Assembly: GCA_947625725.1 (NCBI GenBank) | Contig: CANQPI010000010.1 | Location: 1 to 53,128 of the forward strand | Length of the DNA stretch: 53,128 nt | Direction: 5' to 3' | DNA from: an uncultured Clostridia bacterium | GTDB taxonomy: Bacteria > Bacillota > Clostridia > Christensenellales > CAG-314 | Part shown: in pieces, positions 21,269 to 24,335 of the stretch | Position numbering within the stretch: the first letter of the stretch is position 1 | Layout: each line of letters starts with the position of its first letter | Program-made: the position numbers and the translations under genes | The notes under the pieces: generated by a model | What the model was told of the DNA's origin: nothing | The model's input: the letters and a program-made list of their open reading frames with translations, nothing else | The model's database searches: none

Positions 21269-21609
21269 GCGCAAATTTTCGGTATCGGCGACAGATACAA
21301 GGTCTGCTCGCCGCGGCAAGAAGTATCGGCGAGCGCGTGGGTGCTGACTAACGAGAGCGGCGACGAAGGGACGAAGTGTATCTCTCCTTGACAAAACGTC
21401 CGTACACGCGGGCGTTTATGTTCCGATCGGCAAGATTGTGACAAGTTGCGGCGTGGTTTGGGGCGGGGTCGCCCGCGCTACGCGGCGGTAAATGGTAAAT
21501 TTGTGCATTTTTGCCCTAGCGGTATAACATAATTGCGGGTTTACAGGACAAAAGTATAGCATAATTGCAATTTTATGGGGCAAAAATGCAACAAATTTTC
21601 ATTTTGGTA
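21269..21609. repeat. Non-coding region with a 13-bp inverted repeat and paired 14-bp direct repeats
   Basis: No gene is supported here. TGCATTTTTGCCC (21504-21516) and its exact complement GGGCAAAAATGCA (21578-21590) are 61 bases apart. Between them, TATAACATAATTGC (21523-21536) and TATAGCATAATTGC (21555-21568) repeat with a 32-base period, about three helical turns. They sit just upstream of the lipoprotein promoter and look like regulator or recombinase sites. The GC-rich part at 21290-21470 shows nothing else I can name, apart from a 15-base echo of the deoC 3' end near 21440. Confidence 0.5.
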
Positions 21610-21640
21610 TTGACAAGACGGGACGGGGGGGGGGTATAAT
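21610..21640 (+). promoter_or_regulatory. Promoter with a G10 tract in the spacer (possible phase-variable promoter)
   Basis: Consensus TTGACA (21610-21615) and consensus TATAAT (21635-21640) are separated by 19 bases, of which the last ten (21625-21634) are all G. The optimal spacer is 17. Slippage in the G tract would change spacing and so expression of the surface lipoprotein downstream, as known for Neisseria porA and opc. Confidence 0.7.
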
Positions 21641-21713
21641 CAAATTCGCGGGAACGGCGGTGCATAACTATCTGTACCCCCGTCCCCGTAATACTCACCT
21701 TACAGGAGGAAAT

Positions 21714-24335
21714 ATGAAACAAAAAAGATTAGTTGCTTTGTTGCTTGTATTGGCAATGCTGTTTGCGGTAGTTACGGTAATTGCCGCTTGCGACAAGCAC
21801 GAATGTAAACATGTATGCGAAACCTGCGGCAAATGCACGGACGCAACTTGTACAGACCCCGCATGCAAGGACAAATGCCCCGGACACGAAACCGCTCACG
21901 TCTGCGGACACGTTTGTCCTACTTGCGGCAAATGCACGGATAGCACCTGCACCGACCCCGTCTGCGCGGACAAGTGCGAGGGACATCAAACGGTAGACCC
22001 CGACAAGGGCAAGACCAAGGATAACCCGCTCACTCCCGACGAGGCAATTGCTCTAATGAAACAAGCGGGTAGCGGCGTTGTGGTAGGAGCGGCAGAAAAG
22101 CAACAGTACTACATTCAAGGTGTGGTAAACGCAGGTTCAACGGTGGATACTCAATACCACGAGTGGACTTTTACTCTCGGAACAGGTACAGACAAAGTAT
22201 CTTGCCAAGCAACAATAGACAGTAGTGTAACAAACAAACCCTCTGAAACAAACGGCGCATTGGACGGCGCAACGGTAATAATACACGGTTTCCTCGAACT
22301 GTACAGCGGCAGGTATCAATGTTCATATCTTCCCGCAAGCGCAAGTCCCACGGGCAACAAGTTTACGCCCAGCCTTGTGGAGATAACGATCCCTGTTGGC
22401 GAAGTCGAATCTGTTTCTATTATGAACGGAATTGATTATGCAAACTCAACGGCATATCTGCTACCGATAGAGGGCAATTCGATTAGTTTTTCTGCCAAAG
22501 TAAACCCCTCCAACGCACCGCAGGACATTGTGTGGTCGGTAACAAACGGCGACGTAGCGACCGTTACAGCAAACGATACCACAGAGGAAGCACCTGCAAG
22601 CGCACAGGTTACATACAAAGGTCAAACAGGTAGCGTAACGCTTACCGCAACGGCAAAGGGTACAAACATTTCCGCCACCGTCACTGTGGAATTTCGCGAT
22701 GTGCATGGCGGCAAAGAGAGCGATCCTCTGACTGTTGATGAGGCTATTGCAATTATGGAGGCAAAACCGGGTGAATATCTGAATGCCGACGACAGAGGAC
22801 ACGGTTACTATATCCAAGGAACTGTTGCTAGTGGTTCAACCGTAGCAGGAAGCGGCACTTGGTCTTTCACTCTTGCGGGCACCGACAACAAGAGCATAGA
22901 TTGTTCTGTGGAAGGCAGCAAACTCAACGGTATCAAAATTCCCAATATGGCAGGCGGCTTGGACGGCTGTCAGATATTGCTCTATGCAGAACGGATCACG
23001 TATGTCAATGACGCCCACACGGCAAAAGGCAACACGAATGAGTTGAAATCCTGCACATTCCCCGCCCTCACGGCGATAGAGATCGAGGCGGAGCAAACGG
23101 AAGTGACTATTCCCAATTCCGTTGAAATAACGGTCAAGAGCATAACTCCCGCCAATGCGGTATTCGAAAACGTCGAATGGCTGACTTCCGACGAAACCAA
23201 GGCAACCGTAACGGGCGACGAGAGCAAAGCCACAGTTACTGCCGTTGCCGCAGGCGAAGTGAAAATTTCCGTCAGATATGCCAATATTACTTCCAATGAA
23301 ATAACGTTAAATGTTAGCCAAGAACAACAAGCAATCAAAGCAACTTATGATTGGACGGACAAACTCACGGCGGATACTGTATGCAACAATACATATTATC
23401 ATTACAATTTGCCAAACGATACAGATATACTCAGTTCCTACATTAATGTCTGGACACCGGGTCAAACCGAAATAACCGAATTCAAAACAAAAAATGCTTT
23501 CGAAGCAGGAGAAGAGGGTAAAGGAATAGGCTATTTTGCTCATCCAAGACGTGACAATTCATGTACTATCAGTATAGTAACACAGCATCAAATCAAAAAA
23601 TTTACGCTCAAACTTATTCCGTATAGTGACGCAACAACGATACAGTTTTCCGTCAACGGTCAACCCTATCAAAAAGATAAAACAGATCAAGATAATTGGG
23701 ACGGCAAAGTAAGTAGTGCGTTCGAAGTTTCATTTGAGTTTAACCAAGCCACACAAAATATAGAATTATCAACAGTTTGGACAACGGGCAACAATTTTGC
23801 AATAGTAGGTATAACGTTTGAAACAGAGGCAACAAGTTCAATGGCCGACGTGTTGGATTGGACGGACAAACTCACAGCGGATACCGTATGCAACAACACG
23901 TATTATCATTACAATTTGCCAAACGATACAGATATACTCAGTTCCTACATTAATGTCTGGACACCGGGTCAAACCGAAATAACCGAATTCAAAACAAAAA
24001 ATGCTTTCGAAGCAGGAGAAGAGGGTAAAGGAATAGGCTATTTTGCTCATCCAAGACGTGACAATTCATGTACTATCAGTATAGTAACACAGCATCAAAT
24101 CAAAAAATTTACGCTCAAACTTATTCCGTATAGTGACGCAACAACGATACAGTTTTCCGTCAACGGTCAACCCTATCAAAAAGATAAAACAGATCAAGAT
24201 ACTTGGGACGGCAAAGTAAGTAGTGCGTTCGAAGTTTCATTTGAGTTTAGCGAAGCCACACAAAATATAGAACTGTCAACAGTTTGGACAACGGGCAACA
24301 ATTTTGCAATCGTAGGCATGACTTTGGAGTGGTAA
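21714..24335 (+). CDS. Multidomain surface lipoprotein with Cys-rich head, Ig-like domains and duplicated C-terminal module
   Basis: 873 residues. The lipoprotein signal ends in the lipobox IAAC with C26 as the likely lipidated residue. Residues 26-95 hold two tandem Cys-rich units containing CETCGKCTD or CPTCGKCTD and a DKC(P/E)GH end, perhaps metal-binding. Two OB-fold-like segments (YIQGVV and YIQGTV, followed by WTFTL or WSFTL) alternate with two Ig-like segments of the Big_2 type (VWSVTNGDVATV; VEWLTSDETKATV). Residues ~546-714 and ~715-873 are nearly identical copies of a beta-rich module starting DWTDKLTADTVC. The ATG follows AGGAGGAAAT. Location is the outer face of the membrane; the ligand is unknown. 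Its promoter has a G10 spacer. Confidence 0.9.
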   Translation: MKQKRLVALLLVLAMLFAVVTVIAACDKHECKHVCETCGKCTDATCTDPACKDKCPGHETAHVCGHVCPTCGKCTDSTCTDPVCADKCEGHQTVDPDKGKTKDNPLTPDEAIALMKQAGSGVVVGAAEKQQYYIQGVVNAGSTVDTQYHEWTFTLGTGTDKVSCQATIDSSVTNKPSETNGALDGATVIIHGFLELYSGRYQCSYLPASASPTGNKFTPSLVEITIPVGEVESVSIMNGIDYANSTAYLLPIEGNSISFSAKVNPSNAPQDIVWSVTNGDVATVTANDTTEEAPASAQVTYKGQTGSVTLTATAKGTNISATVTVEFRDVHGGKESDPLTVDEAIAIMEAKPGEYLNADDRGHGYYIQGTVASGSTVAGSGTWSFTLAGTDNKSIDCSVEGSKLNGIKIPNMAGGLDGCQILLYAERITYVNDAHTAKGNTNELKSCTFPALTAIEIEAEQTEVTIPNSVEITVKSITPANAVFENVEWLTSDETKATVTGDESKATVTAVAAGEVKISVRYANITSNEITLNVSQEQQAIKATYDWTDKLTADTVCNNTYYHYNLPNDTDILSSYINVWTPGQTEITEFKTKNAFEAGEEGKGIGYFAHPRRDNSCTISIVTQHQIKKFTLKLIPYSDATTIQFSVNGQPYQKDKTDQDNWDGKVSSAFEVSFEFNQATQNIELSTVWTTGNNFAIVGITFETEATSSMADVLDWTDKLTADTVCNNTYYHYNLPNDTDILSSYINVWTPGQTEITEFKTKNAFEAGEEGKGIGYFAHPRRDNSCTISIVTQHQIKKFTLKLIPYSDATTIQFSVNGQPYQKDKTDQDTWDGKVSSAFEVSFEFSEATQNIELSTVWTTGNNFAIVGMTLEW
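23349..24335 (+). repeat. Recent 507-bp tandem duplication inside the lipoprotein gene
   Basis: The copy starting at 23349 and the copy starting at 23856 are offset by 507 bases (169 codons, frame kept). From about 23395 on they differ at only a handful of bases (for example AATTGG versus CTTGGG, and AACCAA versus AGCGAA). Near-identity at silent sites implies a very recent duplication or gene conversion. Confidence 0.95.

Follow-up and report, generated by a model that had tools for sequence, protein, structure and literature searches.

Introduction

The closest described counterparts of the promoter analysed here are found in Neisseria. At porA, a poly-G tract lies between the −35 and −10 boxes upstream of a surface-protein gene, and the spacing imposed by this tract is described as setting transcription (PMC7864442). 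A homopolymer between the −10 and −35 boxes is likewise described as changing the expression of fetA, and for N. gonorrhoeae NCCP11945 three transcriptionally phase-variable genes are given (PMC5320596). In Treponema pallidum, the promoter region of the surface-protein gene tprL likewise contains a poly-G tract, and its description includes reporters with 8 and 10 Gs (PMC7864442). On a larger scale, many surface-gene repeat tracts per genome make up the phasomes described for Campylobacter, Helicobacter and Neisseria (PMC6321876, PMC2823697, PMC5953494).

A gut commensal provides a further parallel, in that replication slippage at a G tract is described as controlling a surface structure, the pilus of Bifidobacterium breve (PMC9187656). 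Within the Clostridia, phase variation is described for Clostridioides difficile, in the form of the invertible promoters of pdcB and pdcC and the phase-variable cmrRST (PMC11868660). Our search of the open-access literature (PubMed Central) returned these invertible promoters and, within the text that it covers, no poly-G spacer promoters in Clostridia. This fits the remark in an earlier interpretation of the same DNA, referred to below as the sequence-only reading, that phase variation of this type is little described in this class.

The locus described here places a homopolymer between the −35 and −10 boxes of a lipoprotein gene, and the same arrangement is met at 12 other loci of its genome.

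The window promoter and its lipoprotein gene

The window, by which we mean the whole analysed stretch of 53,128 bases, is contig C10 of a genome (G000) of 1.68 Mb in 39 contigs. On the forward strand, a consensus −35 box TTGACA (21610..21615) is followed by a 19-base spacer (21616-21634) and a consensus −10 box TATAAT (21635..21640). The spacer consists of a fixed part of nine bases, AGACGGGAC (21616..21624), and a G10 tract (21625..21634) that was located by a run search in the window and is the proposed slippery switch. Both consensus boxes and the 19-base spacer ending in ten Gs were already part of the sequence-only reading, and its coordinates are exact. Within the 53,128 bases there is no other run of eight or more Gs or Cs, and an order-1 Markov model derived from the window predicts 0.01 G runs of ten or more on both strands together.

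Downstream of the promoter, a ribosome-binding site AGGAGG (21704..21709, + strand) precedes an 873-amino-acid open reading frame (21714..24335, + strand, ATG at 21714). The product has a signal sequence, a lipobox IAAC and a Big_2 Ig-like domain, and the 3′ end of the gene contains, by eye, two near-identical repeats of about 480 bases each. This agrees with the earlier description of the gene as one for a repeat-bearing surface lipoprotein. The leader in between is predicted to form a stem-loop in the 5′ UTR (21648..21689, + strand; −26.7 kcal/mol, z −3.9). A relative of the locus in the congener G019 has a predicted hairpin at the matching leader position (−21.4 kcal/mol, z −3.7), and GTGCATAACT is common to both hairpins.

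The region upstream of the −35 box (21500..21609, + strand) is repeated, with DNA matches of 94-97% at the promoter copies on contigs C30, C33 and C38. Part of it is also present terminally on contigs C2 and C14, both of which stop there. At the C14 end, a stretch that by eye resembles the window upstream region contains, near position 1308 of the extracted segment (L016), a C10/G10 run in place of the short mixed sequence of the window.

A set of G-tract promoters in one genome

The genome contains 37 rows of G tracts of at least eight bases, corresponding to 36 loci since one locus appears at both ends of C39. Their lengths are G8 in five rows, G9 in ten, G10 in 20 and G11 in two. Tracts of at least ten Gs account for 22 rows (21 loci), where 0.31 are expected, so that tract length exceeds the expectation from base composition. 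TTGACA is found 2-12 bases upstream of 13 of the 36 tracts, compared with 0.18 expected by chance. These 13 loci lie on C3, C4, C7, C10 (the window promoter), C11 (two), C14, C15, C23, C30, C33, C38 and C39, and they share an architecture of TTGACA, a tract of 9-11 Gs and a −10-like box. A fourteenth tract, also on C3, is preceded by TTGACG instead.

The promoters on C10, C30, C33 and C38 are near-copies of each other. Counted once, they leave ten promoters, and the genome therefore holds at least ten candidate loci, as judged by their sequence. When the genome was searched with the DNA of the window promoter region, the promoters other than the four near-copies were not matched, which suggests several independent origins of the architecture.

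Twelve of the 13 downstream genes can be read, the gene on C33 being cut by the contig end. Ten of them encode lipoproteins and the other two encode products with a signal-like start: a 2,907-amino-acid protein with a signal sequence on C39, and a 60-amino-acid signal-like product on C7 that precedes what we take to be the gene for ribosomal protein S2. The TTGACG locus on C3 also leads into a lipoprotein gene. Domains found in the products are BspA-type LRR_5, Flg_new (the Listeria-Bacteroides repeat), MBG, Big_2 and DUF6273; a domain scan of ten products left one without a match.

Ordinary consensus promoters of the same genome served as a control (30 loci from 62 rows, of which 27 remain after removal of three without a gene). 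Only four of these 27 lead to lipoproteins, or five on inclusion of one LPGC case, and for nine the product is secreted or a membrane protein of any type. A heuristic of our own, applied alike to both promoter sets, supplied the gene calls and the signal classes. The enrichment of lipoproteins (10/12 versus 4/27) corresponds to a Fisher P of 8e-5, or 2e-4 with the LPGC case included. With the near-copies taken as one family, eight of ten are lipoproteins (P = 4e-4). The same tendency is seen in the named genomes: after exclusion of 12 of 125 sites that were too short to be read, 79 of 113 G-tract promoters precede secreted or membrane products, whereas ordinary promoters from these loci do so in 4 of 19 cases, four of 23 having no gene (Fisher P = 1.4e-4). 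The genes downstream of the tracts are, by their sequence, surface or host-interaction determinants. Not all members of the gene family are placed under such a promoter, since no G tract lies upstream of two related lipoprotein genes, which start at C4:8827 and C16:3716 (L096 and L097).

Several other repeats were observed in this genome. Near position 2214 of segment L089 (G000:C2:3500-9500), the coding sequence of another lipoprotein has a G9 tract directly behind its lipobox with the frame open, and this tract is a candidate for reading-frame phase variation. At position 2617 of L075 (G000:C23:1-5500) and near position 2231 of L093 (G000:C3:78000-84500), the frame stops soon after the tract or begins just before it, and these tracts look like reading-frame switches. 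The two ends of contig C39 (L078, 11,142 bases) share an overlap of 66 bases together with the G tract, and the contig is perhaps circular or a collapsed repeat; its 2,907-amino-acid protein carries MBG/InlB repeats, and by eye the contig also encodes a lipoprotein and an ATPase-like protein. The promoter-like string TTGACACGGAATACCCGAATACCTATATAAT is present in eight identical copies (C2, C6, three on C9, C25, C31 and C35), which perhaps belong to a repeated element.

Spacer lengths

Measured by eye to the nearest −10-like box, the spacers of the G-tract promoters in this genome are 14 (C14), 15 (C11), 17 (C39), 18 (C4, C7, the other C11 site and C15), 19 (the four near-copies) and 20 bases (C23); that of the first C3 site is ambiguous. 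Ordinary TTGACA/TATAAT promoters of the genome, in a search limited to spacers of 15-20 bases, have a spacer of 17 in 41 of 55 distinct strings, of 16 in nine and of 18 in three (68 rows less six poly-G rows and seven duplicates of one repeated string). Among ordinary promoters in the loci of the named genomes, searched over 12-22 bases, 17 is found in 14 of 27.

G-tract spacers, also searched over 12-22 bases, are distributed differently. With perfect boxes, the 125 sites of the named genomes comprise 2 of length 14, 13 of 15, 19 of 16, 7 of 17, 31 of 18, 37 of 19, 12 of 20 and 4 of 21. The 46 distinct sites from the order (50 less four duplicate poly-G strings) comprise 1 of length 12, 4 of 15, 11 of 16, 2 of 17, 16 of 18, 7 of 19, 4 of 20 and 1 of 22; the two sets may share genomes and are partly dependent. 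The scarcity of 17 is present within classes, with 1 of 25 perfect-box sites titled as Clostridia and 0 of 23 titled as Bacilli. When tract lengths are shuffled among the loci (122 distinct strings), 17.0 are expected at spacer 17 and 7 are observed (P = 0.0016).

Compared with those of ordinary promoters, the spacers of G-tract promoters are thus clearly different, with their centre lying one or two bases away from 17. Scarcity of 17 is not a universal rule: it is clear with perfect boxes and weak with one −10 mismatch. In the latter class, among the matches listed, the peak is at 18 (33/83) and 17 occurs in 11 of 83, a weak deficit (permutation P = 0.06, drawing on 105 non-TATAAT strings among the matches listed). 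The scarcity may reflect a predominance of weak states, or a poly-G tract may shift the best spacing to 18. The porA promoter is strongest at a spacer of 18.

For the window promoter, we predict that the assembled form is weak or off because its 19-base spacer is two bases over the usual 17, and that the loss of one or two Gs would raise its activity. The sequence-only reading had taken 17, reached by loss of two Gs, as the ideal. Spacing of 17 is indeed usual for ordinary promoters, but the optimum of a G-tract promoter need not be exactly 17.

Distribution across genomes

Within the genus, 18 of 25 genomes contain the pattern TTGACA-N2..12-G8, while a reversed-pattern control matches one of 25. 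The remaining seven congeners have no match to this pattern, so the trait is not universal in the genus. It is found in 22 of 41 genomes of the family and in 103 of 396 genomes of the order, spread over 41 of 142 genera (reversed control 2/396). If TATAAT is required directly after the tract, 50 sites in 34 of 396 genomes remain, and if TANNNT is required 76 of 396 genomes of the order remain; the reversed control is zero in both cases.

A scan of species genomes gives at least 118 stretches with the pattern. Among 80 titled rows of the matches listed, 24 are Clostridia and 19 are Bacilli by a count of titles. Many of the matches listed come from rabbit, deer, chicken or sheep samples, and a few are named gut isolate genomes. 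A few others among the matches listed belong to Saccharibacteria, spirochaetes, Streptobacillus, Helicobacter, Blautia and others, and the single matches in distant phyla may be due to chance. One rabbit (Lapin) MAG contig, titled as an uncultured Clostridia bacterium, and the congener G008 match at 100% identity along 862 bases, which identifies at least this member of the genus as gut-associated Clostridia. Phages were also considered as carriers; in the IMG/VR viral collection the full G-tract promoter pattern is present in only two stretches (L265 and L266). The matches listed for one genome of the order, G402, include six G8 promoters that agree in their spacer and have TACAAT, and at one contig end of this genome TTGACA is followed by 20 Gs; its G8 promoters are possibly a multicopy element.

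That the tracts result from chance or from an assembly or sequencing artefact, such as the false poly-G of two-colour chemistry, hardly deserves credence. Some contigs do end at or near tracts (G018:C10, G018:C15, G402:C5 and, in the present genome, C33 and C39), as an artefact would predict, but for 11 of the 13 loci the nearest contig end is over 900 bases away. The tracts are positioned between promoter boxes, they occur at homologous places of different genomes, and they are present in independent assemblies that include a few named isolate genomes. Both chance and artefact are contradicted by the near-zero reversed-pattern controls and by the run-length expectation.

The pattern is strand-biased. 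A poly-C version is found at six distinct sites in five of 25 genomes of the genus, compared with poly-G in 18 of 25; its control matches in three of 25, and none is present in the genome studied here. Poly-C spacers are at background level. So marked a bias towards G, as opposed to C, in the −35 to −10 reading direction would suit a regulator binding site or a G-quadruplex that controls a surface regulon. We nevertheless consider this very improbable. At most sites of the genome the tract adjoins the −10-like box while the other spacer bases vary by locus and its distance from the −35 box ranges from 3 to 9 bases, which is unlike an operator. A canonical G-quadruplex is built from four runs, and a single run of 8-11 Gs does not have this form. 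Given the variation in spacing and in spacer bases, we reject both as the main function of the tract.

Tract length between homologues and mismatch repair

At some loci of related genomes, tract length differs by one G between otherwise conserved homologues. In the pair G375/G276, from two species, the tracts are G10 and G9, the flanks are identical at 140/145 and 239/248 positions, and the fixed part of the spacer is shared. The tracts of G301/G244 are G8 and G9, with flank identities of 110/120 and 187/248, and the rabbit MAG contigs L185/L195 also have G8 and G9 (139/146 and 214/238). These pairs come from 20 homologue comparisons that were chosen by hand, partly because they differ, and several of which have poorly conserved flanks. 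In a systematic comparison (17 pairs with four flagged, two of the flagged being one site counted twice), two of 15 real homologous pairs differ in length and 13 agree.

At the window locus itself, four paralogues within the genome and the G019 relative all have G10; G005:C1 has G9, in flanks that have diverged from the window locus. Lengths are also equal in L305/L306, L307/L308/L309, L226/L230, L231/L240, L257/L258 and G008:C37/C51. At both ends of C39 the tract is followed by an identical stretch of 66 bases, with at least 11 Gs at one end and exactly 10 at the other, a difference that PCR or sequencing stutter could explain. The check for length variants in related genomes proposed in the sequence-only reading therefore gives a divided answer, with one-G differences at some loci and equal lengths at others, including the copies of the window locus.

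MutS and MutL, which restrain slippage, are encoded in the genome (MutS_I and MutL_C matches). The tracts would consequently have to slip despite mismatch repair, or do so at modest rates. Loss of mismatch repair as a general cause is rejected, as MutS_I is found in 54 and MutL_C in 58 of 61 genomes searched, including this one. Neither domain was found in the congener G019, which has eight promoter sites among the matches listed, nor in G029 and the half-complete G042, which have no such promoter site; as G019 has sites whereas G029 and G042 have none, no repair-loss rule emerges.

Equal lengths and encoded repair proteins are what would be seen if the tract gave each promoter a fixed, graded strength, through spacer length or an A-like poly-G geometry, in a tuned regulon of weak lipoprotein promoters without switching over ecological time. 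The uniform G10 of the paralogues and the congener relative, the several homologous pairs of equal length and the presence of MutS and MutL all agree with this. Against it, a tuned regulon has no need for spacers ranging from 14 to 20 within one genome, runs of ten or more Gs are far above expectation, and some conserved relatives differ by a single G. We therefore regard fixed strength as unlikely.

Proposed mechanism

Slippage-driven transcriptional phase variation of the porA/fetA type, acting at many loci as a surface-protein phasome, is in our view the best explanation of these observations, with a probability of roughly 85%. The phase variation proposed in the sequence-only reading gains support from the comparison: 13 loci, signal-bearing products, near-zero controls, odd spacers and one-G differences all point to it.

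In this mechanism, replication slippage at the tract would add or remove one G per event within a population. Each added or lost G would shift the −35 box relative to the −10 box, and the changed spacing would turn transcription of the lipoprotein gene up, down or off in single lineages. With at least 13 such promoters, a clonal population could display many combinations of surface proteins. The benefit may be bet-hedging against immunity or phages or between niches.

In a wider form of this proposal, poly-G spacers would serve largely uncultured Clostridia and Bacilli of the gut as a surface-protein lottery that spans the genome. The usual spacer length would be one or two bases off the optimum, so that most copies are expressed weakly or not at all and a single slip increases the expression of the locus concerned. 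We judge the odds of this wider form to be about even. If it is true, multi-locus SSR phasomes based on promoters rather than on reading frames would form a large class, so far overlooked, in bacteria other than the classic pathogens. Clonal populations would then vary at their surface, as a protection against antibodies or phages, and the switching would escape comparisons of consensus MAGs. A review's question on multi-locus phase variation outside pathogens becomes testable in this genome, where one DNA pattern picks out about a dozen candidate switches that are measurable in existing metagenome reads. The distribution of spacer lengths is in addition a natural data set on the selection of promoter spacing. 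Counting of length variants in metagenome reads is described for mycoplasma tandem repeats (PMC5476646).

Comparison with known systems

The kind of mechanism proposed here is already known; within the reach of open-access searches, novelty lies in the host group, the scale (13 loci) and the pattern of spacing. The likeness to porA is one of architecture, with no homology expected: here the boxes are perfect consensus sequences, the genes encode lipoproteins of Clostridia and there are 13 candidate loci per genome. In the Campylobacter, Helicobacter and Neisseria phasomes the tracts lie mainly within genes, whereas the main site in the present case is the promoter spacer. The tract of fetA is poly-C, whereas here it is poly-G and poly-C is at background.

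The sequence-only reading had placed opc beside porA as a gene switched by a poly-G spacer. This holds for porA, but opc is described as having a poly-C tract that overlaps the −35 region (PMC7864442). The tprL tract, according to the same account, overlaps the −10 region and leaves the spacing unchanged (PMC7864442). In B. breve the tract is described as lying between two open reading frames, where it alters the reading frame and not a promoter (PMC9187656). The C. difficile promoters are described as undergoing site-specific recombination, in contrast to the homopolymer slippage proposed here (PMC11868660). In number, the 13 candidate promoters of this genome compare with the three transcriptional loci given for gonococcal NCCP11945 (PMC5320596).
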